Source: Bidens hawaiensis
Taxonomy: Eukaryota > Streptophyta > Magnoliopsida > Asterales > Asteraceae
Direction of reading: 5' to 3'
DNA length: 64,000 nt
Assembly (NCBI GenBank): GCA_021521415.1
Contig: JAIQDT010001748.1
Location: 457,692 to 521,691, forward strand
Positions 1 through 44,904 of this stretch are shown one piece after another (the first letter of the stretch is position 1; each line of letters starts with the position of its first letter). The position numbers were made by a program, and so were the translations under genes. Below the pieces are notes generated by a model, which did not search any database, was not told where the DNA came from, and saw only the letters and a program-made list of their open reading frames with translations.

Positions 1-1503
1 AAGGCTAACGTAGTGGCTGACGCGTTAAGTCGCAAGGAAAGGACCCAGTTGCATGCGATCCGTATTCAGTCCAATCTTCCCTCCTTGGTTCTTGAAGCTC
101 AAAAGCAAGCGATTGCTGGTGGTGATCTCAAAAATATGCTATCTTGCGGTGCCGAACGGAAGTTTGAAACCAAGTATGATGGTATACTTTACTACTTAAA
201 TCGCATGTGGATTCCAAACTCTGAACCACTTCGAGAACTTATCCTGAACGAAGCGCACAAATCCAGATACTCTATTCACCCGGGCAGTGATAAAATGTAT
301 CAGAATCTCAAGTCTCACTTCTGGTGGCCGGGTATGAAGAAAGTCATAGCTTTGTACGTCGGTAGGTGCCTAACATGCTCGCGGATCAAGACTGAACATC
401 AGAGACCATCTGGCCTGTTACAAAAACCGATCATACCGCAGTGGAAGTGGGACGAAGTCGCTATGGACTTCATTACCAAACTCCCGCGGACACCCAGCGG
501 TTATGACACGATTTGGGTTATCGTGGATTACTTGACCAAGTCTGCCCACTTTCTCCCTGTCCGCGAGGACTACACTACGGAGAAGCTGGCGCGGATTTAC
601 ATTCGTGAGATCGTAACCCGTCACGGTGTGCCTAAGGGCATCACGTCTGACCGTGACCCCTCTTTTGCGTCAAGGTTCTGGAAGTCATTTCAGAAAGCCT
701 TTGGGACAAGTGTGAAACTTAGCTCTGCCTATCATCCTGAAACGGACGGACAGAGCGAAAGGACCATACAAACCCTGGAGGATATGCTCAGAGCCTGTAT
801 CCTTGAATTCGGTAGTAGCTGGGAGACTCACCTTCCTCTTGCAGAGTTCTCATACAATAACAGCTATCATGCTACCATCAAATGCGCACCATTCGAGGCA
901 CTCTATGGCAGGAAATGTCGTTCTCCACTGTGTTGGTCCGAGACCGGAGATTCTCAAATCCTCGGCCCGGAACTGATACAGGAAACCACTGACAGTATCG
1001 CCATCATCCAGCAAAGACTTAAGGACGCCCGCTGTCGACACAAGTATTACGCTGACAAACGCCGCAAACCTCTGGAGTTCCAAATAGGCGATCGCGTAAT
1101 GCTCAAAGTTTCCCCCTGGAAGGGCATTGTTCGCTTCGGGAAAAAGGGAAAGTTTGCTCCAAGGTACGTAGGACCTTTCAAGATCATCGAAAAGGTCGGA
1201 CCCGTAGCCTATCGCTTGGAATTGCCTCCAGAACTCAGCCGTGTTCACAACGTTTTTCATGTGTCGCAACTCAAAAAGTGCCTCGTTGACGAGACCGCTC
1301 AAATCCCGATCGACACGGTTCGCATCGACGACAAACTACACTTTGTTGAGGAACCTGTCGAGATCCTAGATCGAGAAGTCAAAAGGACTAAGCGAAGCCG
1401 GATACCCATAGTCAAGGTACGTTGGAACAACCATCGTGGACCCGAGTTCACATGGGAGCGAGAGGATAAGATGAAGGAGGAATACCCTCATCTGTTCGCA
1501 TAG
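1..1503 (+). CDS. Ty3/gypsy (Tekay-type chromovirus) Pol polyprotein, C-terminal part: integrase plus chromodomain
   Basis: The frame is open from base 1, so the RNase H and reverse transcriptase part lies upstream of the window. The first codons read [12 protein letters not shown], the usual RNase H to integrase junction of gypsy elements. An HHCC zinc-binding module follows (His codons 256 and 277, Cys codons 367 and 376). The integrase core shows all three catalytic acidic residues: Asp at 466 (AMDF), Asp at 649 (TSDRD) and Glu at 757 (GQSER), a DD36E spacing. After the GPF/Y-like stretch near 1166-1260, a chromodomain-like tail (VEILDREV, then VKVRW and PEFTWERE) ends at a TAG at 1501. 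The protein should insert cDNA into chromatin, with the chromodomain steering the target site. No stop or frameshift is visible, unlike every other coding region in the window, so this is probably the youngest copy here. A GTG at 13 is only the first start-like codon and not a real start. Confidence 0.93.
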
Positions 1504-1950
1504 TCATCATCTTTGTAATTCTAGAAATCTTGGAGTCTATGTAATCGTAATCATGTAATCAGGGACCAATATCAATCAATGAAGTATCATGTTGTTCCTA
1601 TTTGCTTATAAATATTCTCTTATTTGCATAACACCAAGTTTGGCTACCCATGACTCGTGCTGGAAAACACAAGTTGTGCATACTTAATCATGTAAACATT
1701 GGGGTAAACTATGTATCATTGAGCCAAAATTTGTCATCATTCTAGCATTCATGAAGCATGGTTGTGTGTGTGTGTGTGGTGTCGTGTCGATTTTTCTAGC
1801 CGCACACAATGGAGTTTATACATTGATACAAGGTGAACTCGTAATTATAGTCCGGAATATAATTACATCAAGTTCACAGGTGTATACGTGTATAAACAAT
1901 ATGCTATTGTGTAACTATGAGTCGTGAACTCAAGCTTCGTGTAGGGAATT

Positions 1951-2027
1951 AATCAATGAATGTTGAAGGAGTGGTGGGTTAGCCGCTGGTACACCCTATA
2001 CATAAACCCCTTCGGCACAAGTTGATT
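1951..2027 (+). repeat. Hairpin A of a four-copy family with invariant loop and variable stem
   Basis: An outer stem AATCAA (1951-1956) pairs with TTGATT (2022-2027). A 4x4 internal loop follows, then TGTTGAAGG (1961-1969) pairs with CCTTCGGCA (2009-2017), using two G-T wobbles. The loop core starts AGTGGTGGGTTAGCCGCTGG and continues to the 3' arm. The pairing was read by hand. Confidence 0.8.
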
Positions 2028-2111
2028 ATGTCTGAAGCGAGACTTGGAATTAGGGACTCATAGTTAGCGTGGCAGCTGTGAGGCGTTAAATTCAAGAGTT
2101 ATTGAGGGAAT

Positions 2112-2190
2112 TATTCATTGGAGATTGAAGGAGTGGTGGGTTAGCCGCTGGTACACCCTATATATAAACCCCTTCAATCCGAAATGAATA
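2112..2190 (+). repeat. Hairpin B, same loop core with a different stem
   Basis: TATTCATT (2112-2119) pairs perfectly with AATGAATA (2183-2190). A 3x3 internal loop follows, then GATTGAAGG (2123-2131) pairs perfectly with CCTTCAATC (2171-2179). The loop core of about 39 bases matches hairpin A except for one base. Confidence 0.82.
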
Positions 2191-2279
2191 TGTCTGATGT
2201 AAAGCTTGAAGGTGATGCCTTGTAGTGGAAAATAGTGTGTCGTCCTGTGTGTCATTGAACTAATAGGAGTCGAAAGAAA

Positions 2280-2358
2280 CACCCAAGTGGAGTTGAGGGA
2301 GTGGTGGGTTAGCCGCTGGTACACCCTATATATAAACCCCTTCAACTTGATTTGGGTG
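2280..2358 (+). repeat. Hairpin C, same loop core with a third stem
   Basis: CACCCAA (2280-2286) pairs perfectly with TTGGGTG (2352-2358). A 4x4 internal loop follows, then AGTTGAGGG (2291-2299) pairs with CCTTCAACT (2339-2347) with one wobble. The loop core is identical to that of hairpin B. Confidence 0.82.
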
Positions 2359-2826
2359 GTATCCAAGACGAAAATTAGGGGTAGTGGCGCATAGTGGTCA
2401 TCATGGGATCATTTGATCTAAAACATCATTGCATCAACTATACTAAGTTCTAAATTTTGGGACGAAATTCCTCTAAATTGGGGAGGATGTAACGCCCTGA
2501 AATTCGATTGGTAAACTAGGATCGTGAAATCATCGGAAACTATAGACTTTGGGATTCTGGACGATAAGTTCGGAACCCATATCATTGGAAAAATCTGCTT
2601 TTATCATTTAAAATGTTTATTTTATAAAACGACATTTACGCCTGAAAAATATTAATTTTTATGCTCTCGAAAAATTAAATGTTCTTATTTAAAAAGATTT
2701 CAAATAATTATTCGGAAAATGGTTTTATAAAAGTTTTGCTGAAAAAGTTTTAGGTTGTTTAAAAACTTATGAACTCGACTAGTCTTGACCCGTCGGTAGC
2801 CTAAACCCGAACCCGAGTCACCCGAG

Positions 2827-2834
2827 TATTTAAG
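2827..2834 (+). promoter_or_regulatory. Possible TATA-like element of the chromovirus LTR
   Basis: TATTTAAG lies about 340 bases into the LTR. It is followed by a pyrimidine-rich stretch (2855-2895) that would suit transcription start. The match to a TATA box is imperfect and the call rests on position only. Confidence 0.3.
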
Positions 2835-3256
2835 CGGAAAATCAAGTATTCTTACACCATCTCTTTCATTTCCACCAACACTTCCCACCCAAACACTCTC
2901 ATTCTAGAGAGAGAAACTAGAGAGAGAAAGTCTTCAAACTTCAAATCCGAGTCCACAAATCTGTTTGTTGTTATTCTTGGTAAGATCTTCTTGAAAATCA
3001 TCCATTTTCATAACCATTTTCGGCCTCAAATCGAGCAAAAACACCCATTTTCGTTTCTAGAGTTTTCGGGTCAAAAACCGTCTTGTTTTGGTGTCAAAAT
3101 GCAGGCTTTTGTGTTTAAAATCACTAGGAATCGATAGCCCTTTCAATCCCGAGCATTTCCATGTCAAAAACTTCGATTTTGGGTCAAAAATCTGGAAAAT
3201 CTGAAAAACCCGTAGGTTTCTCCGTCGCCCAGCTTGAAGGAGTCGAATCAGACTCA

Positions 3257-3510
3257 TTCGATCGAACCAGTCGATCGAATCAGTCCAGTCGATCGAATAG
3301 GAAAGCAACCGAATGGTCTCCAACTCATTCGACCGAATGAGTTTCGTATTCGATCGAACGAGTGTCTATTCGATCGAACAAGTTCCATGTTCGACCGAAC
3401 GAGTTTTTCCAACTGGTTCGACCAAATGTGTTTCTAGTTCGATCGAGTGTGCCTCAGATTCGACCGAATGTGTGTCTATTCGATCGAACGTGTTCCTATT
3501 CGATCGAATC
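3257..3510 (+). repeat. Array of about 12 degenerate TTCGATCGAA palindromes
   Basis: The 10-base palindrome TTCGATCGAA, or close variants such as TTCGACCGAA, recurs roughly every 20-25 bases. Some copies have longer pairing arms, for example ACTCATTCG facing CGAATGAGT around 3323-3345. Open frames across this region are by-products of the repeat. Confidence 0.8.
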
Positions 3511-4012
3511 AAGCCAGAACCAAGCTGTTTTCGTCTTTAAAACCCAGTTTTTGCTCGAGGCCGCGTAAGCTCGTTTTCTTAGACTTATAGCACGTTGTTA
3601 ACCTTATATATATGTTCAACTCTAGGCTAAGGAGATCTATTGTAGCACCATCCTAACCCGAGATCAAGGTGAGTTCATAGCCCCTATTTAAGCTTTTCAA
3701 AACTATGGGGTGGAAACATGGTAACTTTACACGTTTGGATAAAATCATTTATGCAAACACTCTTTAAACTATAAACTTTTGGATTTCTACACACGTGCGG
3801 AAATCCACAAGCTTTTTAAGAATCTATAAACTTTGGAAATCTATGAACATGGGGAAAACCCATCAACTTATGGAGATCTAAGAACATTGGAAATCAATGA
3901 GTATGGGAAATTCTATGAACATTGACATCATGGGAATGGGAATCATATTCATATCATCATAGTCATTGTGTCAGCATGGAAATCTAGAGATCAAAGCATC
4001 ATGAGTTGAATT

Positions 4013-4222
4013 GGACGCGAGAGTCTATTCTACTCTCGGTAGAACTCGCGACCATGAGTGGCATTCTATTCTCGGTGGCACTCGTAACTCTTGGGATTTC
4101 ATACTAGTCTCGGTGAAATCCATAACTCTTGAGGACCTATACTAGTCTCGGTAGGGACCAAGGGAACCCAGGATTCTTTGGGGAGTCTATCCTACTCTCG
4201 GTAGAACCTAGCTGAGTCCTGG
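4013..4222 (+). repeat. Cluster of five hairpins sharing a CTCGGT loop motif
   Basis: TCTCGGT recurs at 4034, 4070, 4108, 4146 and 4196. Flanking arms pair but differ between copies: GGACGCGAG with CTCGCGACC (one mismatch), ATGAGTG with CACTCGT, GGATTTC with GAAATCC, a weaker GGACCT pair, and CCAGGATTC with GAGTCCTGG (one wobble). Confidence 0.7.
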
Positions 4223-4615
4223 ATGACAAGAACGAGGTAGTCTTGGTTTAAGTCTTGCGTGGGATCAATCAAGTCTTGTGTGATCATTGAGTTTCATCAT
4301 CATTCATCATCATCATCATTTATTCACCATCATCTTGGATACTAGTAAACAGTGGGATCTTGGTGTTGGTTTATCTAGTAAACTTAGCATGCTCAAATCT
4401 ATATGTCCTTATTTATGCTTAACTGCTATGTGCTACATGTACCGTTGGGAGACCACAAATCTTTGAGTAATCTTATCACAAACGACTCTAATGGGAGAAT
4501 AATAAGCCCGCTGAGAGTCCAGGAGAACATTTCATGTTTTACTTACTACAAAAACCTCTTTGGGAAAACCAAGAGACCTTTTCTTACAAACCATCTTAAA
4601 ACCGGGTATTATATC

Positions 4616-4704
4616 CAAACATAGTAGTATAAGTTGTAGGAGTGGTGGGTTAGCCGCAGGTACACCCTATATATAAACCCCTACAACCTATACTAGTATG
4701 TTTG
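4616..4704 (+). repeat. Hairpin D, loop core of the UTR hairpins with a 25-base stem
   Basis: The 25 bases at 4616-4640 pair with 4680-4704 with two mismatches. The stem sequence is unrelated to hairpins A, B and C, while the loop core differs from B by one base. This copy lies within the LTR and inside the putative intron. Confidence 0.85.
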
Positions 4705-5024
4705 TGTATAAACTCTTTTTCTTTAAACCTATGAATTCACTCATCTACTTTATGTAGTTGACAGTTTGTTACATGTTTTCAGGAAATAATGCAGCAAGAA
4801 ATCCCTAGCAAGTTTAGAGGCCTTAGAGAGATGAAGGCTAGTCTAGGAGTTGTTTGGAAACTTGATATTTTGTATTAAAACAATTTGTTTCATGTTACCT
4901 GGATGGTGTAATATTTGACATTTTGGTTATGTTTATGCATTTAGACTTTTATACTATTGTGCTCAACAATCACGACTTAGTCGCCGCGCCTCGATTATTC
5001 CGCCATCACGATCGGGGTGTGACA

Positions 5025-6275
5025 CCGGATTTTTGTAGATCTGGACGGAAAAGAACAACACAGAGCAGCTGACTTCACTCTCCAATGGAACAATGCTTTG
5101 CTTACGTCATTGTTCTTCTTCAGATCTTCAAACAGCAATAATCAATCAGCAAAAAATCTTCCAAATCAGCAATCAACAAGCTCTGATACCACTTGTCGGT
5201 CCCGAATATTCACTCCATAAACAATAACAATGTCATAACCCACACATATTGTGTCGACAAGAAGGTTAATGACGGACTGCTAAATAAGGAAAGATTCTTG
5301 TTTGTTAATGGCGGAATCAGAAACAAACAAGTTTTGTTGCTAATAGGTTAATAATGGTAACAGACACGAACATTAACTCAAAAGATTTCCATTTATATAA
5401 AGCAATTCACACAAATGATAATCTATTAGGGTTTCTTGTCGGAATGTATAATCAATGAAAACCTGGGAAAGTCGTCACACTCAGAAGGAATATTCGATCT
5501 TATCTGAAAAGTGTAAAGGCTAATCCGTATTCCGTCTTGTCCCCATCTGGAGGCGTGCCCTAAATTATTCCTTTTATAGGTCTGCCACCTCCTGACAACT
5601 GTCATTCATTCTAGAAATCCTAATGATTAAAGCATATTCAAATTACATATTCAAAACTATACTAAGTGTACAAGTCTTCCGGTTAGGCCTTGTAGCAGTA
5701 AACTTTTCCGAGTAGACTTTGTGCTCTGCCTTCCTTTAGACTAGGTAACCTTGAAGTGTGCTCGAGTACAGTTCTCCAGGTAGACTTCACTTAAAGAGTA
5801 TTTCACCAAGGAAACTACTCACCGGGTAGACTTCAATCTTCTTGACTTTATCAGACTTTACCCGACAAAATCCTACTACCATAATGTTCTTCAAGAATCC
5901 CTTCAACTCATTTGTTAGATAACTTATTAAGCAACCATAGTGTGCTCGATACACTGTAGCTTGCTCTGAGTTGAACCTTGCTTGGAAAGTAAGTATGATA
6001 AACTTTCAACAAGCTTGCCCGGATTCCACATTATTAATCAAACCTTTCTCGGTAAGAACAACTTTGCTAGATGTAGTGAACCCTACTCGGGTTATTACAA
6101 AAGAAGACTTCAAGAAGGTAACCCTGCCTGATAGACAAAATATCATGCCCGACTAAGTAAAACCCTGCTCGGATGTCTCAGGTGTGCCTGGTTCCCTACT
6201 TAGCGAATTCTGAGGAGGTTGAGAAGATTCCAATATTCCATATGATCATTTTTAGGTCAAATCTTTGGCTCAACA
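5025..6275 (-). mobile_element. Truncated Sirevirus-like copia element: leader, primer binding site and 5' LTR
   Basis: On the minus strand the LTR begins TGTTGAGCC (6275) and ends CGACA (5194), about 1.08 kb. It is a diverged relative of the LTRs at 31914-33125 and 48767-49976. Two bases further, TGGTATCAGAGC on the minus strand (5180-5191) matches the initiator-tRNA-Met primer binding site. The leader continues to 5025, where the chromovirus LTR has cut it, and the rest must lie to the left of the chromovirus. The right flank is not a polypurine tract, which agrees with a 5' LTR. Confidence 0.82.
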
Positions 6276-6578
6276 AGAGATATACATTCAATTATACTCG
6301 TATCAAAGTTTACTCGACAATATTTCAAAAGTGCAAAGTGTGCTTGAGAAGCATAAAGTGTACTCGGGAAGTAAAGTTTGCATGAAATCTTCTGAAATAT
6401 GCAAGTATGTTCGGAGAGCACCTGAAATATTATTTTAATATACAATGTGCTCTAAGCATGAAGTTTGCTCAATAAACAAAGTTTACCCGAAAAGACTTGC
6501 AAATTCAGATAAAATATTCAGACATATTTAACACATGTAAACCAATATTTTAACATGTATCGTTGACAAATTTACCAT
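6276..6578. other. Old flank rich in TTTACYCGAA-type short motifs
   Basis: No gene is visible. Repeated AAAGTKTRCYCGRA words match the spacer of the complete Sirevirus at 38260-39560. This looks like a remnant of another Sirevirus spacer. It continues after the copia insertion at 17282. Confidence 0.5.
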
Positions 6579-6972
6579 TGTTAGAGCAATTTAGTCTAAT
6601 GCTAGATCTATTGGGCTTATAATGCAAATTGTATGTTTGTTAAGGGCTAAAATGTAAAGTGAAACATATAAGTGATGTAGCGTATAAGGTTATACACACG
6701 TATAAGCTTATACAGTCACAATAACTTATGCGTTGTCACTGCTGACTGTATATAGGGCTTTCATGTTTAGATTTCATAACATTTGACAAATTATTCAGTG
6801 GTGTACTTTCATTGTGATATCAATATACTGAATGTTATGAGTGATTGTGTTGTGACTTCTTTATGATATATTTCCTCTATATCGTATCGTATAGTAAATA
6901 TAATTGAATCGGTCCTAATCATTACGAGTTAACGTACATGATGTTTAACATGAATAGGATCATGTTCCTACA
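6579..6972 (+). mobile_element. 5' LTR of the copia element
   Basis: The LTR starts TGTTAGAGC and ends TTCCTACA. It aligns throughout with 16893-17281. It contains CGTATAAG and CTTATAC words near 6680-6712 that recur elsewhere in the element. Confidence 0.85.
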
Positions 6973-6974
6973 AG

Positions 6975-6986
6975 TGGTATTAGAGC
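6975..6986 (+). other. Primer binding site (initiator tRNA-Met)
   Basis: TGGTATTAGAGC follows the LTR by two bases. It differs by one base from the TGGTATCAGAGC consensus of plant copia elements. Confidence 0.8.
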
Positions 6987-7500
6987 GTAAGGCTTGTATT
7001 TACTACTGATTACAGCACATTCAAGGTCAATTGATTAAGTTTTGAAGCTTTAAAGATCAATGAGATAAGCCGAACACATATTCATCAATTACTCATTGAA
7101 TTATGAAAAATTTTACAATTCGTTTGGTCATTATGATCATGATTACATAATAGTTGTTTCAGCAAGAGTGAATTATGCTAATTTTGGCACAAAATCAGAT
7201 TCTGGATTAAAAAATGGTCAACAGTTCGTCCGACATATACGTGTTATGGTAAACGTATAAGTTGTTACATGCGCGTATTAGGCATATAAGAGGATTACAC
7301 GGACGGATAAGTATTATACGCTAAATTTGTGTGTCATACGTTGAAACAAAGATATATGTTGTTCAAGGTTATCCGTTCTGAATTGGATATCAGGACGCAT
7401 AAGGTTACACGTTTTAGAAGGTTACACATTAGTTCAAGGTTTATACATTTGTTGAAGAGTTTGACGGGTGAAAGAAAGTTATACGTTGGTTGTTTTGAAA

Positions 7501-10356
7501 ATGGAAGACTTAAACGCGTTTGTTACTCATGCTTCACCAATTATTCATAACATAAACTTGGAAAATGAAATGGGGACATCAACCAAGCCCCGAAGATACT
7601 TAGGATGGAAGATTATCCTAATTAGGCCGGCAAATTTGAAACGTTTGTACAGGCTGTGAGCTATGAAACTTGGGAAGCCATTGAAATTGAATACATCATT
7701 CAGAGAAATGAAATTGGCTCAAGTCATAGATTATCTCAAACACCTGAGGCTGACAAACCTAGTTTCATGCGTGAGAAAAAGATGATGAACTTATTTCAGC
7801 AATCTATCAAATCTGTGATATTTCAGCTCCTACAACATAATGGATCTTGTTATTCAATATGGGAGGCTCTTATGAAAAAAGAGTGTGGTAATGCTGACAT
7901 GAGAAAGTCAAAGATGAATTTGATTAAAAAAGGGTTTGATATTTTCATCATGGTCAAAGGTGAAACGATGCCTCAAATGATTGATATATATTGTCACCTT
8001 GTGAACGATATGAAGAGATTAGGGCTTAACAATCAAATCCAATCAATTATGCGAGACTAACTTTGGCTTGATTTAGTGAGAAACAAGAGGAACACGAACT
8101 TGAGTTGAGAAAGAAACAAAAAAATGAAGAATTCATTTATTGTTCAAGATATTGGGTTGTATTTCAACTCTTCACAATCTGTGATTCCCCCAAGTCAAAA
8201 GATCCAAACTTCTTATGCTACCAATAGTGGTTTTGGAGGAAATTCTCAATCAAGTCAACTAGATAACATACCTCATTTTACAAGTTCTTATGTTGGAACC
8301 GGTTCAACAACATCTTTTGTTCCTGATCAATCACCAAAACCTACTAATCCAACATCTGATGTTATTCAATACAATATTGTTGTATTGTGGAGAATGTTCA
8401 AGAACACATGGCATTTCTAGGTTCTGTTTTGGAGTCATACGAATGTCTTATTGCTGGCCGGATTGGAAATTACAATATGACAAAAGAAGATAATGACCAG
8501 ATTGACCCCGAAGAGATGGAAATGCTTGACATCCGTTGGTGTATGGCTAGTGTGGTGAGTATAGCTCAAAGGTTTAGGGAAATCACTGGAAAGAATTTTC
8601 TGGATGGAACTATATCTAAATCGGGTTTTGATAAGTCGAACGTTATATGCTTTTGATGCAAAGAAAAGGGATATTTCAAGAGAGAATGTACCAATCCTGA
8701 AGTAGGAGATTCAAGTCCAAATCCTTTTGGTTGTGACTACAACCGACGAGCAATTTATCATCAAAGTTCACCAACACAAATTAAGTCACCAAAGAAGAAT
8801 GAATCTTCATCTTCAAAGGCTTGTCATGCTCAACTTGATTAGGGATTTAACTAGAATTCAATGGTCCATAAAGCTAATGTGGCAGAAGTTTTTGGTGAAT
8901 GTTCACAAGCTAAAGAGTCTAAGAACAAGAATGATGTAGAAATTGATGATGTAAAAGGAATAAGTGATGCTGATGAAGGGATTTCAACTGTTGATGAGGA
9001 TTCTCCTAAAAGTTTTGAATCGATTCCTGATGTGTTTGAAAGTTTTGCAGGTTGGTTCAATGGTGAAGAAGTTCCATATGGAAAGATTGACTTTGGAACT
9101 GATGATGAGGAGGAGGCTAGTGAAACTGATGGAGTTTAGGAAACATCAAAGTGAAACTAGCGGAGATTTTGATAAAGAAGGAATTCATGATGCACCAATT
9201 CTACAAGCAAACATGGATGGTCAGCTAAAATTTCCCTTAAAGAAATTCAACGCATTTGTAAATCACATGAAGAAAAAGAATTTGTTATTAATTCATTGAT
9301 AACAGATTTTAATTTGCTAAAAGATGATTATAACAAAACATTTCTTGATTATCAAAATGTAAAAGAGGCTTATGGAAAGCTTCAATTGTGTGAGAAAAAC
9401 TTGTGGAATAAAATTTTGCAAGATGAAAAACGATTTCTATGCTCACTCACCCGATTGAAGATAATCAAATTGCCATTAATAGACATGTGGATGAGAGAGC
9501 GGAATTGAAAAGAGAATTGGAGTTGATTAAAATTGAAGTTGAAAAAGTTGAAACCAAACTAAAAAGTTATTCCGCGTCTAAATATGTTTTGGATCCTATT
9601 GTTCCAAAAGAGATTCCAAAATATTATGGTGTTCCGTCGCCAATTTGGAGTTATTATGTTTCAAAAGAACCCAAAGGATTTCTCAAGGTGTTGAACGTGG
9701 TGTCTGATTTACCACAACATGATAATTCATGTGATGAACATGTTGTTCAATCTGTTCATAGTTCTGAGTGTGATAGTGAGATAGTTAAACAAGCATGTGA
9801 ATTTGTGTTGGATTAACCTGAAATATCATCTAAAGAAAGTATTAAATTGGTAATCAATCTGAGAAAACAAAACCCAAAGAAAATGGTAAAACTGATAAAA
9901 ATAATTATCAAAACTCAAGATTTGCTAAACCAGTTTTTATTATAAAGATAGGGTATTGGGTTCAAAGAGGATAATCAAAAGTCGGTAAAAACACAAGATG
10001 GTTTTCAAAAGATTGTTTTTGTTAAAGGTGAGATTATGAGAAAGAAAAGGAGGCTATCTTTACAAGGCAATCAAATGACGAGTTTTATAAACTCAAAGCT
10101 GAAAAAGAGAAACAAGAGAATCATATACATTCTGTTAACAAATTTGTTGATAGCAGGAAGTGTTTTCGTTGTAATGAAGAAGGACATTTGTTCTATTCGT
10201 GTCCTAAAAGATTTTGTGAGTAAACCTACACCTCCACCAATCAAGATTTTAAAGAGAGGTGTAGACAAAGAATATGTCAAAAAGATTTTTGAAGTGGGTG
10301 AATCTTCGAATGCCAAGAAAAATATAAAAATAAAGGTTTTATTGGTCAGAATTGGG
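7501..10356 (+). pseudogene. copia Gag, broken, with two CCHC zinc knuckles
   Basis: The frame opens at ATG 7501 and can be followed through several frame changes. A helical Gag core (7656-8060, with WEAL and MKRLGL-like motifs) resembles the UBN2-type Gag of copia elements. The first knuckle at 8648-8689 reads C-x2-C-x4-Y-x4-C, with a TGA inside it and His changed to Tyr. An acidic region (8861-9139) and a coiled-coil-like region (9439-9816) follow. A second intact CCHC knuckle lies at 10161-10202 (CFRCNEEGHLFYSC). It would bind and package the element RNA. Two knuckles far apart also occur in the Gag of the Sirevirus at 45149-47413, so this is shared family architecture. It is not expressible as one protein. 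Confidence 0.75.
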
Positions 10357-12090: not shown

Positions 12091-12479
12091 TTAATGAAAA
12101 TCCGATATTTGATGGTGATGACCATGTTGATGATACTCCAACTACACCCATCTTTCGATGATGATGGTGAAGATCATACTGATGTGATTGAGTCATTGAT
12201 TCAACCAACACCTGATCCTGTAATTTCTGATCTTATGGTTCCTATTTCCGTGCTTTCTGGTGAGGTGACTACTGATGACAATATTACGAATCTTCTAAAT
12301 GATGTGGTAGTTCCTGGTGAAGTTATGCATCGAACTTTATCATATCACCCGGAAGAAAATATCATTGGATATCTTAACTCTGGTGTCCATACTCGAAGTC
12401 AACTTGATCAAAGCTTAAGTTGTTATTATTCTCAAGTTGCCCCTCTTCAAAACCGATTCTCATTTAAATGTTACATTTT

Positions 12480-13969
12480 ACAATTTGACCTGAAAACATA
12501 CAAGCAAGCATTAAATGAGGAGAGTTGGGTAAATGCAATGCAAGAGGAACTGTTGCGATTTGAAAAACTTGGAGTTTGGAAGCTTATGGATTTACCAGAG
12601 GGTAAACGATTCATTAACACCAAGTGGGTGTTCAAATGCAAGAGAGATGAAAAAGTTATAATTGTAAGAAACAAGGCTCGATTAGTGGTTCTAGGTTATA
12701 TAATCAAAGAGAAGAAATTGATTTTAATGAGGTCTACGCTCCCGTTGCTAGACTTGAAGCAATTCAAATTTTCTTAGCCTTTGCATCTTGGAAGGGATTC
12801 AAGGTCTACCCATTGGATGTTAAGTCTGCTTTACTGAACGGTAAATTAGGTGAAGAAGTCTTTGTTGGACAACCATCGGGTTTGTCATTCCTATTTAAAA
12901 AGACAAAGTGTACCTGCTCAACAAAGCTTTGTACGGTCTTCATCAAGCCCCTAGAGCTTGGTTTGATACGTTGTCCCAAAATCTGTTAGACAAAGGCTTT
13001 ATTCGTGGAATCGTTCATTGTACACTCTTCACAGAGGAAGTGGATGGACACTTGCTGATAGTCCAGGTCTATGTGGATGATATCATTTTTGGGTCAACGA
13101 ATGATGTTCTGTCAAAATTCGAAATGAGTGTTATGGGAGAGTTGAGGTTTTTCTTAGGGTTGCAAGTCGAACAAGAGTCTGATGGAATCTTTATTCACCA
13201 GATTAAATATGTGAATGATATTCATGAAAAATTCAACATGGCTGACTCATCGCAGAGTAGCACTCCTATTCCGTTAATCAAGGAATTGGTCCTGATCCCA
13301 CCGGGAGAAGGTCGATACAATGCTCTACCGTTCCATGATTGGTTCCCTCGTGTATCTTACTGCTTCTAGGCCAGACATCATGTATCCGACGTGTCTTTGT
13401 GCCCGATATGAATCCAGTCCAAGGGTCTCTCACCTAACGTTGGTGAAGCGGAAACATCAGTATCTTAAGGGGAATCCAGGGGTCGGTCTTTGGTATCCTC
13501 GAGACGATGTGTTTGAGCTGAGAGATTTTTCAGATTCGTATTATGGTAGCTGCAACCTGAACGCCAAATCTACCACCGCCAGCTGTCAATCTTTTGTAGC
13601 AGGTTGGTGACATGGCAGTGTAAGAAATAGACGACCGTGTCACTATCCACTTGTGAAGCCGAATATGTTGCTGGTTCTAGCTGTTGTTCCCATGTTTTGT
13701 GGATTCAACAACAAATGCGCGACTACGGTTTTAATTTTCTTACTACTCCTATTTTTGTAGATAATACTGCTGCCATTTCCATAACTAAAAGCCCGGTAAG
13801 TCACTCAAAAACTAAGCATATTGGCATACGTTGTCACTTCATCCGTGACTGTTACGAGATGAAGTTGATTACCATAGATAAAATTCACACCGACAATCAA
13901 AAAGCTTATCTTTTTACTAAGCTTTCGATAAAAACAAATTTTTATATTTGTTGGGGCTTAATGGTATAA
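12480..13969 (+). pseudogene. copia reverse transcriptase and RNase H, broken
   Basis: Reverse transcriptase starts with the typical WVNAMQEEL and NTKWVFKCKRD stretches (12525-12650). It changes frame near 12715 and 12880, and then shows [16 protein letters not shown] and the catalytic YVDDIIFGS (about 13070-13097). RNase H follows in shifting frames from 13320 (GSLVYLTASRPDIMY), with STCEAEYVAGSSCC and the C-terminal HFIRDC stretch ending near 13969. The YVDD box is intact, but the protein is broken by at least three frameshifts. It would copy element RNA into DNA in the virus-like particle. Confidence 0.82.
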
Positions 13970-41412: not shown

Positions 41413-43043
41413 TCAGATCTCATCAGAGTTGATCATCCCCAGGGCTTTCAGAAGAAAGTTGAACCTGGTTCTATCAAGTGGTTTGGTGAATAGATCAGCC
41501 AAATTGTCACTTATATCAACTCTTTGCATTTCAATCAAACCTTTTTCACTACAATCTCTGATGAAGTGATGTCTGATTTCACTATGCTTAGTCTTAGAAT
41601 GTTGAACTGGATTCTTGACAGTAAAGTATGCAGTAGTATTATCAATAAGTATAGGGGTGTTTAGAAAATTCAAACCATAGTCCAGCATCTGATTTTGAAT
41701 CCATAGAACTTGTGCACAGCAGGCAGATGCAGCAACATATTCAGCTTCTATAGTAGAGATTGAGACAGTAGTCTGATTTTTGCATTGCCATGACACTAGC
41801 CTTTCACCCAAAAATTGACATCCACCTAAGGTTGACTCTCTGCTCATGTTACAGCCATCATAATCACTGTCTGTATATGCAATCAGATCAAAAGATTGGT
41901 TCTTTGGGTACCAAATTCCAAAGTCTAGTCTTCCCTTCAAATATCTGAATATTCTTTTAACAGCATTCATGTGGGAGACTTTTGGACTTGATTGGAATCT
42001 TGCACACACGCATACATCAAACATGATATCTGGTTTTGTTGCAGTCAGATACATCAGAGATCCAATTTTGGCTCTATATTCATGTTCATCAACAGGCTCC
42101 CCCTTTTCATCTGCAATTATCTTCTCTTTGGTGTCCATTGGAGTTGAAGTAGTCTGTACTCATGACAGTTGAACTTGTTCAAGATGTCATGCACATATTT
42201 GTTTTGGTGAATGAAGATCCCTTCAGCTTTCTGTTGAACTTGCAATCCAAGAAAGAAGTTCATTTCTCCCATAGAACTCATGCTGTATTTGGACTTCATT
42301 ACCCCTTCAAACTCCATGCACATTTGTTCATTAGTAGATCCAAAGATGATGTCATCCACATACACTTGTAACAGAAGTAAGTCTGATCTCTTTCTTTTGT
42401 AGAAGAGTGTCTTGTCAATGGCTCCTCTTGTAAAACCATTTTCAAGAAGATGATTTGACAGCTCATCATACCATGCTCTAGGAGCCTGATGCAATCCATA
42501 AAGGGCTTTGTTTAGCTTATACACCCTGTTGGGATACATTGGATCCTCAAAACCTGGAGGTTGAGCTACATACACCTCTTCATCAATCTTTCCATTTAGA
42601 AATGTAGACTTAACATCAAGCTGGAACACTTTAATGTTCTTTGAGGCAGCATATGCAAGAAAAATCCTGATAGCTTCAAGTCTTGCAACAGGAGAAAAGA
42701 CTTCCTCAAAGTCTATTCCTTCTTCTTGAAGACATCCCAGTGCTACAAGGCTAGCTTTATTCTTAATCACCAAACCCCTTTCATCCCTTTTGTTTCTAAA
42801 AACCCATTTGGTTCCTATTGTATATCTGTCTATTGGCCAATCAACAAGATCCCACACATGTAGGTCTCTAAACTGTGCCAGTTCCTCTTGCATTGCTTCT
42901 ACCCAACTATTGTCTTTTAGTGCTTGAGCAATGTTCTTTGGCTCTATCTGAGATAGAAAGCATGAGTAAAGACAGATGTTTGCAATTTCAGAATGACTTC
43001 TTGTGACTCTTTCATGAGATAGAAGGATGATTCTTTTCCACAT
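41413..43043 (-). pseudogene. Sirevirus reverse transcriptase and RNase H, broken
   Basis: Reverse transcriptase (43043-42117) shows [54 protein letters not shown] and the catalytic [10 protein letters not shown] one-base shift near 42150 leads into RNase H (42138-41413), with IGSLMYLTATKPDIM, AYTDSDYDGCN (an RNase H acidic residue) and STIEAEYVAASACCAQ. It ends GMINSDEI. Apart from the shift the domains are well kept. The enzyme would make cDNA in the particle and remove the RNA strand. Confidence 0.9.
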
Positions 43044-43164
43044 AAGGAGTTTGTATAATCATATTTGTAGACAAATTTGTGTCAAGATTTGTTTCATTGA
43101 GCTCTGGTTCTTCAATAATCAAATCAGTTTCTGCGTCATGAAATTCTGGTGCTTCATCATTATG

Positions 43165-44226
43165 TTATCCTGAAGTAGATGCACCATTGTTTTCTAAGTT
43201 TAATCTTTGAAATAGATCTTGAAATATTGAAGTAGATGCAGCTTCTTCTCCACTTGCTTGGTTGCTTGTGTCACCCTCATTCTGAACTTGATCATTCTGC
43301 ACATCTTGATTGTCTTGATTGTTCTCAGTATGATCATGTTCACCAATATCCCTTGAGGAATTCTTCACAAAGGTATACTCCTTTTCTTTTCTAGCAACCT
43401 TCTTCCATAATTCTTCCAAGTCCAATGATTTCTTCTTTTTCTCTTCAATTTCACTGATCTTGTAGAAAGATACATCAAAGTCTTCAGGATAAATCTTGAA
43501 GGACCTAATCAACTTCTCATGATCAAACAGCCATGCTGCACCATCAACTGTATTGAATTGATTTTCATTGAAAATGATGTAAGATGATTCTATAACACTC
43601 AAGTGGTCTTTCACATAAACTCTGTAAGCTTTTGAGTGTGTAGAGTATCCAACAAAGAAACAATCCAGGGATTTTGTTTGAAACTTGTTCAAATAGTCCC
43701 TTGTGTTGAGAAAAAAACATTTGCATCCAAAGGGCTTGAAAAACTTGATATAAGGCTTTCTATTATGAAATATTTCATATGGAATTTTGTTATGCCTTTT
43801 GTTGACAAGTACCCTGTTCTGAACATAGCAGGCTGTCTTTATGGCTTTACCCCAGAAAGTGACAGGTAGATTAGCATCTGCTAACATTGTTCTTGCAGCT
43901 TCAATTAAAGTTCTATTTCTTCTTTCTGCAACACCATTTTGTTCAGGAGTTCTAGGAGCTGAGAATTGTTGTTGTATTCCTTTTGCTTCACATAATTCTT
44001 GCATAACTCCATTCTTGAACTCAGTGCCATTGTCACTTCTCATCATCTTGACTTTCTTATTCAATTTGTTCTCAATCATTTTTACACAACCCTTAATCAA
44101 CTCTGCAGTCTCATCCTTGGTACTTAGGAAATAAACCCAAGTGTATCTTGAATAGTCATCAATGATCACAAGACAATATCTTTTCTTCCCTATACTTGGC
44201 ACACTCACAGGACCAAAGAGATCCAT
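43165..44226 (-). pseudogene. Sirevirus integrase, core and C-terminal part
   Basis: MDLFGPVSVPSIGKKRYC leads into IIDDYSRYTW (first Asp), MRSDNGTEF (second Asp) and PEQNGVAERRNRT (Glu), so the full catalytic triad is present. The C-terminal part is typical of copia (FGCKCFFLNTRD, CFFVGYS) and followed by an acidic, Glu/Gln-rich linker ending at a stop at 43165. The frame is continuous with the upstream pre-integrase region except for a TAG at 44266-44268. A shift or stop after 43165 separates it from reverse transcriptase. Confidence 0.9.
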
Positions 44227-44265
44227 GTGAAGTAATTCAAGTACTTGATCAATTGTGTTGATGAG

Positions 44266-44904
44266 CTAAGGCTTATGAGTAGATTTGTGTTGCTTTCCCT
44301 TTTGGCATGAAATACAATGATCTTCCAACTTGAACTCTCTTGTAGGTAAGCCTATGACATGCTCACCTTTAACAAGTCTATTCATGTTCTTCAAGATCAC
44401 ATGACACAGTGTCCTATGCCACAATTTTGACTCATTTTCAGTGGCTTTGGAAACAAAACATGCACCTCCTCTGGAAACAGATTCTTTCATATTCAATTCA
44501 TACAAGTTGCCATTTCTTGGTGCCATCATCATAATCATTTCAGGTGGAATCACAAACTCAGGTTTTAAGATGAAACAGTATGAATCATCAAAACTGACTT
44601 TGTATCCCTCATCACACATTTGTGATATACTCAGTAGATTGTACTGAAGACCTTCAACATGAAACACATTATCAAATGAGACTTTTCCATTTGTTAAAAT
44701 TCCTTTTCCAACAATCTTTCCACCATTTTCATCACTCCCAAATGCTACAGGACCTTCAAACTTTTCTTCATAATTGACAAGAGACCTCTTGTCACAAGTC
44801 ATGTGCCTAGAACAACCACTATCCATGTACCATATGTCATTCAGAAGAGTGGACTGTTCCTGCACATACAAAGAAATTTTGATTAGTTGAGTGATGAAGT
44901 GCAA
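44266..44904 (-). pseudogene. Sirevirus protease and pre-integrase zinc region
   Basis: The aspartic protease motif WYMDSGCSRHMT is complete, with the DSG triplet at 44815-44823. It is followed by GKGILTNGKVSFDNVFHVEG and then the pre-integrase zinc region (WHRTLCH, and CISCQKGKQHKSTHKP). A TAG at 44266 ends the frame where related elements read on into integrase, so it looks like a single-base nonsense change. Confidence 0.85.

Follow-up and report, generated by a model that had tools for sequence, protein, structure and literature searches.

Four hairpins in a 64,000-nt stretch of the Bidens hawaiensis genome (contig JAIQDT010001748.1; the whole stretch is hereafter the window) share a 39-base core which is almost frozen, while the stems that carry it change in sequence and mostly remain paired, and we conclude that these hairpins are very probably a structured RNA element under selection. 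They are part of a Ty3/gypsy retrotransposon, in which hairpins A, B and C form a tandem series after the pol stop codon and before the 3' long terminal repeat (LTR), and hairpin D lies within the LTR. They most likely serve in the handling of unspliced genomic RNA, and we tentatively suggest that their job may be the nuclear export of this intron-containing RNA, by analogy with the constitutive transport elements (CTE) and RNA transport elements (RTE) of retroviruses and related elements. The comparisons below use the own genome of the plant (3.47 Gb in 15,902 contigs), and L-numbers denote loci fetched for comparison.

Four hairpins with a near-invariant core

All four hairpins are on the plus strand, with A at 1949–2029 (81 nt in the register of our covariance model), B at 2111–2191, C at 2279–2359 and D at 4616–4704, and with the 39-base cores at 1970–2008, 2132–2170, 2300–2338 and 4641–4679, respectively. 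A first-pass annotation of the window had reported four hairpins with an invariant loop at these places, and this was borne out by a 40-base pattern which found four matches where 0.00 were expected (100 shuffles), as well as by the loops themselves, B and C being identical over 39 bases and A and D each one base off.

In an ungapped register (columns 17–33, G.U counted), 14 of 17 positions are paired in A and in B, 16 in C and 15 in D, compared to a mean of about 7–8 for shuffled arms (p from 2e-4 to 1.5e-5 for the four hairpins), and arms swapped between the copies pair at only 8–12 of 17. When the window was scanned for hairpins combining 24-base arms and a 39-base loop, D ranked first among 63,913 positions, C was in the top two, and A and B were tied within the top 15. 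The RNA folding z-scores were -2.1, -3.0, -4.5 and -5.7 for A to D.

Some details of the first-pass annotation needed correction. It had counted 6+9 pairs for A, and while all of the arms do pair, A has 8+9 once G.U pairs are included; similarly, the 3x3 internal loop is present in A and B, but C has just a G.G mismatch beside a G.U pair and D is paired there. Nor are the stems unrelated in sequence, as had been thought, at least for A–C, which are carried by diverged tandem repeat units (1943–2345, plus strand, 75.3% identity over 243 bp). Their arms align without gaps, and the differences between these stems are therefore compensatory changes.

Stems covary around the core

In the alignment of A–D, 10 of 24 pairs show changes on both sides and 97.9% of 96 cells are paired, a level reached by none of 500 shuffles, with slid registers giving 38–50% paired. 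The pattern was maintained when we expanded the alignment to 18 chosen hairpins, where both-sided changes were found in 14 of 24 pairs (3–8 in slid registers) and 94.2% of 432 cells were paired; covariation counts score related rows as separate and are inflated by this, and the shuffles keep the relatedness. The covariation score of this set was reached by 0 of 500 shuffles and the number of pair types by 2 of 500, and RNAalifold recovered the same stems unprompted. The set does not include 122B (identical to 107B), 121D, 134D1 (identical to 138D1) and 134D2, the hairpins of L128, L137 and L141, the L104-type copies L110 and L118, or single-copy variants. In a 15-row set, the score and the paired cells were beyond all shuffles, the pair number was matched by 9 of 500 and the pair types by 162 of 500. 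The compensatory changes of A–D and of the 18-hairpin set exceed both the column-shuffle and the slid-register controls.

Inside the 39-base core there were no both-sided pair changes in the 18-hairpin set or in tests of the core fold, and a nested stem-loop and an H-type pseudoknot are equally compatible with it (96.7% of 180 cells are paired in the pseudoknot). We note that core position 18, the apical base following GCCGC, can be T, A or C, and that AAACC and AAGCC alternate towards its 3' end (window D, L104, L107 and L139).

Paired arms with changing sequence could also come from a mutational process, in which template switching during reverse transcription, or conversion from arm to arm, makes an arm complementary to its partner with no selection on the fold. 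Templated copying would be expected to erase the 3x3 loop of A and B, the G.G mismatch of C and the G.U pairs, all of which persist; many of the changes are one-sided wobble steps, and the frozen core would be left unexplained. The template-switch alternative raised in the first-pass annotation does not account for the retained mismatches and G.U pairs, and we regard it as highly improbable.

Copies and subfamilies in the own genome

In the own genome, 4414 exact matches to a 28-base core pattern were counted, compared to none for the reversed control, and the 40 sequences scored out of 736 candidates in a search with hairpin B were all 100% identical to B. The family to which the window belongs is young, and within it there is one fixed stem per position in which only single letters vary, with breaking changes or indels in some single copies (28 loci, five of them refetches of the same insertion, plus the window).

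More diverged subfamilies provide a better contrast between core and surroundings. Between L104 and the window, 128 of 748 spacer positions (17.1%) and 19 of 114 arm positions (16.7%) differ, compared to 2 of 117 positions in the three cores (1.7%), and the divergence of L110 and L118 resembles that of L104; for L107 the corresponding numbers are 105/749, 18/114 and 3/117. Across these four loci the core has diverged by 1.7–2.6% and the spacer by 14.0–17.1%. The contrast is weaker in the closer L122 (spacer 43/753 or 5.7%, arms 10/114, cores 4/117 or 3.4%).

The changes in the arms mostly leave pairing intact. In L104, ten changed pairs are kept (two of them by changes on both sides) and three are broken, and the kept/broken changes between subfamilies are 4/1, 4/2 and 2/0 at position A and 5/0, 5/0 and 4/0 at position C. 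Between D and the LTR hairpins of a second, diverged family (described below) they range from 3/1 to 4/2, and between D and L121 they are 0/1. Against a null in which the same substitutions were re-dealt over the arm positions, there were too few breaks in A (p = 0.009 for L104 and 0.04 for L107), in C (0.03 for L104) and in D compared to the second-family LTR hairpins (0.0004–0.017); the deficit was unclear for C in L107 (0.07), A in L122 (0.11) and C in L122 (0.47), and absent for B (0.41 and 0.37) and for D against L121 (1.0). Set against the refuting condition given in the first-pass annotation, the outcome is two-sided. Changes keep pairing more often than they break it at A and C between subfamilies and at D against the second family, but not at B or at D against L121, and the young family has its fixed stems.

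A covariance model built from 15 hairpins, R2, was searched against the window and 30 genome loci, which include some of its own source loci, and gave 82 strong hits (63–102 bits). The reverse strand scored at most 26.2 bits, strong hits within any one of the searched loci share one strand, and there were no strong hits in 30 prokaryote loci. Overall, selection on the fold, as first suggested from the window, is supported by covariation in the window, across subfamilies and in the diverged family, with a loop that is nearly frozen and arms that drift like the spacer.

A putative intron and a diverged gag-only family

The LTR contains a putative intron of 1114 nt at 3669–4782 on the plus strand (AAG|GTGAGT ... 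TTTTCAG|G), which is proposed from sequence alone, and hairpin D lies within it about 80 nt 5' of the acceptor. The donor and acceptor were found in all 21 LTR sequences compared, 1112–1259 nt apart. A probe for the spliced junction, representing a window-type LTR without the intron, had no match at two or fewer mismatches in the 3.47 Gb.

A donor-site pattern that excludes the family of the window matched 246 exact places in the own genome, and among the 100 that were listed, 75 occur in same-strand pairs 4.5–5.3 kb apart; the two D hairpins in three window-type elements are 8.2–8.3 kb apart. In the copy of this second family at L139 (on contig C4), the distance from the primer-binding site (PBS) to the start of the 3' LTR is about 2.8 kb. 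It codes for a Gag of 410 aa (Ty3_capsid, Retrotrans_gag), none of the remaining five frames is open for longer than 76–150 codons, and its blastn matches to the window, together with the ten tblastx hits shown, are all 3' of the window open reading frame (ORF). Pol therefore appears to be missing from this copy. The Gag is 54% identical over 394 columns to that of a window-type element (L140), which codes for Gag plus protease.

The hairpins have been kept in the second family, with cores in which 0–3 of the 39 bases differ. L139 has four before the 3' LTR (78.9–87.0 bits with R2), three in the place of A–C and one more whose stem is new, and L141, a second copy, has four at matching places; the LTRs of the family (L138, L134, L128 and L137) carry two hairpins 130–132 nt apart. 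The fourth hairpin, at 2638–2719 in L139 and with its core at 907–945 in L141, has a stem unlike the others, and in L139 a change in its core converts an inner-stem G.U pair to G-C. When the window LTR is compared to L138 in 40-nt blocks, 34 positions are identical in the donor block, 35 and 37 in the hairpin blocks and 30 in the block before the acceptor, whereas the blocks between the donor and the hairpins have just 12–22 identical positions and the interior cannot be aligned. The acceptor CAG is kept in L134, L128 and L137.

Possible functions of the hairpins

We infer that a protein binds the core in the sense transcript, with the strand of action taken from the position of the hairpins in that transcript. 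A host protein is the more likely ligand than Gag, given that the cores of the two families differ at 0–3 of 39 positions while their Gags are only 54% identical. Reverse transcription copies the R and U5 regions of the RNA into both LTRs, and spliced RNA that was reverse transcribed would lose the intron from the newly copied LTRs. An intron in a transcribed part of the LTR would thus be lost by way of spliced RNA, and the element would need some means of favouring the unspliced form, within which the putative intron with hairpin D is retained. By acting in the manner of a retroviral CTE or RTE, the hairpins would let the unspliced genomic RNA exit from the nucleus.

The same hairpins could instead be a packaging (psi-like) signal whose cores bind Gag, with the intronic D limiting packaging to unspliced RNA, and we consider this possible though doubtful. 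Retroviral packaging signals that lie 3' of the splice donor have this effect, and D, being inside the putative intron, would be confined to unspliced RNA if the intron is real; no intron-less window-type LTR copy was found with the junction probe in the own genome, and one core is repeated in several copies. The hairpins are also kept in a family which has gag but, in the copy read, no pol, which would be needed in trans. Packaging is nearly as likely as export because this gag-only family must obtain pol from elsewhere. A precedent is BARE2, a parasitic family which retains packaging signals (PMC3735527). On the other side, A–C are outside of the intron and so are not restricted to unspliced RNA, the Gags are far more diverged than the cores, and the usual place of such a signal is elsewhere. 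Packaging signals are mostly found near the PBS and the start of gag. Export and packaging both predict that protein binds to the core.

Several observations weigh against the export function. A–C would be present in spliced and unspliced RNA alike and alone cannot discriminate between them, and the retention of the hairpins in the gag-only family is as compatible with packaging as with export. The acceptor AG has been lost in L138, and the absence of spliced copies is equally expected from an intron that is not used. Pairing at position B is not kept between subfamilies, with kept/broken changes of 1/2 and 0/2. Finally, a comparison of G.U and A.C cells as a test of the strand was indecisive (41 vs 18 cells, yet 8 vs 7 distinct types), and the plus strand folds lower in 17 of 30 hairpins only. 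This test used 30 of 42 distinct 81-mers, and the 12 that were dropped for a shifted register or decay were all from L124–L137, which had been fetched with a pattern favouring mutants; R2 still scores the hairpins there at 63–102 bits.

The indecisive strand test leaves room for a site that acts at the DNA level, where the core would be bound as DNA by a protein of the host or of the element, or would form a single-stranded foldback, and DNA can fold too, B and D doing so on both strands. A site in duplex DNA has no need of variable arms that are paired, the strong hits at each of the searched loci run in a single direction, and G.U pairs are kept in the subfamily copies, all of which make such a site very unlikely.

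Another role in RNA is also somewhat unlikely, be it in translation, stability, poly(A) control, the control of splicing by D, dimerisation, or as a self-cleaving or catalytic RNA with variable stems. Ribozymes and ligand-binding RNAs typically have a frozen core on variable stems, as seen here; the core is compatible with a pseudoknot, and D is close to the putative acceptor. However, covariation is absent within the core, no hammerhead consensus was seen there by eye, and none of the 4227 Rfam models, ribozyme families included, reached its gathering score in the sequences covered (window 1–8000, hairpin D, L138, L139 and L141). No hammerhead families were reported in window 1–8000, L138, L139 or L141, and the element accordingly does not classify as a hammerhead retrozyme. 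The best Rfam score was 31 bits for MIR7994, against a cut-off of 100, on both strands of D (4605–4716); we reject a miRNA identity for D as this match is weak and on both strands, though some plant miRNA entries may be retrotransposon hairpins of this kind.

Comparison with known systems

CTE-type elements follow the last ORF and precede the 3' LTR; A–C resemble them in this placement and in being present in several copies, although D is not so placed. The Mason-Pfizer monkey virus CTE recruits NXF1–NXT1 (PMC7551171), and the mouse IAP and MusD elements bear RTE and MTE (PMC12786077). What the hairpins would have in common with these is a structured cis-acting RNA in a reverse-transcribing element that exports full-length or intron-containing RNA (PMC7551171, PMC12786077). 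The CTE, in contrast, is a single stem-loop of 150–175 nt with two internal loops (PMC7551171), while here separate hairpins of 80–90 nt share a single frozen 39-base core and one of the hairpins lies within an LTR, and we claim no sequence match.

BARE1 and BARE2, like retroviral packaging and dimerisation signals, provide a parallel in cis signals common to an autonomous family and its defective partner (PMC3735527), but BARE is a Copia element and BARE2 is without Gag, whereas the partner here has gag but, in the copy read, no pol. The Conserved Hairpin Site of the fungal Copia element GalEa is also a conserved hairpin in an LTR retrotransposon; it immediately follows the 5' LTR in elements that lack a PBS, and its stem sequences are more conserved than its loop (PMC5445492), which reverses the roles of stem and loop seen here. 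Retrozymes, with hammerhead ribozymes in plant LTRs, likewise place structured RNA in plant LTR elements, but our element has no hammerhead match in the sequences covered and has coding capacity. Tandem repeats between pol and the 3' LTR have been described (PMC11963269) in the same location as ours, as family-specific arrays, whereas the units here carry a covarying hairpin whose near-invariant core is found in the LTR as well. Among the literature titles and abstracts searched none describes this element, by which we do not claim that it is absent from print. No relatives were found in IMG/VR by core pattern or integrase. A 16-base core pattern retrieved 65 stretches from prokaryote genomes, the best having 14 mismatches to a 42-base core, and these were taken as chance matches.

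The host element and its surroundings

The 3' end of a Ty3/gypsy pol occupies positions 1–1503 on the plus strand, open at the start of the window and with its stop codon at 1501–1503, and includes the integrase and, by eye, the end of RNase H. Pfam placed Integrase_H2C2 and SH3_Tf2-1 above their cut-offs and rve and Integrase_p58_C below theirs. The end of the ORF looks chromodomain-like, but no chromodomain was found by Pfam in the pol ORF at E<=1e-3, and the label of chromovirus given in the first-pass annotation was not confirmed. The homologs inspected by name are from Asteraceae (for example Tanacetum, Mikania, Tagetes, Smallanthus, Arctium and Helianthus) and share up to 74% identity, among the best 120 of 8000 scored, which fits a host plant of this family.

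A purine run, GGGGAGGA (2480–2487, plus strand), is by eye the likely polypurine tract and is directly 5' of the 3' LTR, which is 2537 bp long (2488–5024, plus strand; TGTAACGCCC...GGGTGTGACA). The end of the LTR was checked on other insertions and recovered in 18 of 21 sequences, 16 of which differ in the flank beyond it. In L074 and L091 the LTR end is followed by GAT and a PBS-like TGGTATCAGAGCC, which we take to be a PBS of the tRNA-Met kind. The LTR also has a TATA-like GTATTTAAGC at 2826–2835 (plus strand; also in L104, L110 and L118, which are about 18% diverged) and, at 3240–3520 on the 5' side of the putative donor, an array in which imperfect palindromes like TTCGATCGAA recur, found to be repetitive by internal blastn matches. 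A full element at C1:220028–228364 in the own genome has five hairpin sites, A–C once and D in each LTR.

In L074 and L091 the PBS and internal region come directly after the LTR, and LTR donor sites recur at regular steps of 4.7–5.1 kb in C116:603088–613187, C258:1578483–1588622 and C279:571127–580505 of the own genome; these seem to be tandem elements with shared LTRs. Elsewhere in the window, pieces of Ty1/copia-like polyproteins with integrase and reverse transcriptase motifs (ORFs by eye) are found at 41413–44904 (minus strand) and 12094–13369 (plus strand).

Implications

With no match to any of the 4227 Rfam models at cut-off in the stretches searched, the hairpins are possibly a new RNA family. 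They constitute a compact, multi-copy RNA element with a well-supported stem, associated with a putative LTR intron and with a pair of families of which one bears pol and the other is gag-only, and such an element with its comparison pair makes it possible to test directly how the RNA of plant retrotransposons is exported and packaged. We cautiously propose that a frozen core, borne on drifting stems and repeated five to eight times in each element, preserves the putative LTR intron by having only unspliced RNA exported or packaged, and that the autonomous family and its gag-only partner share this handle, which may be the partner's ticket to ride along.

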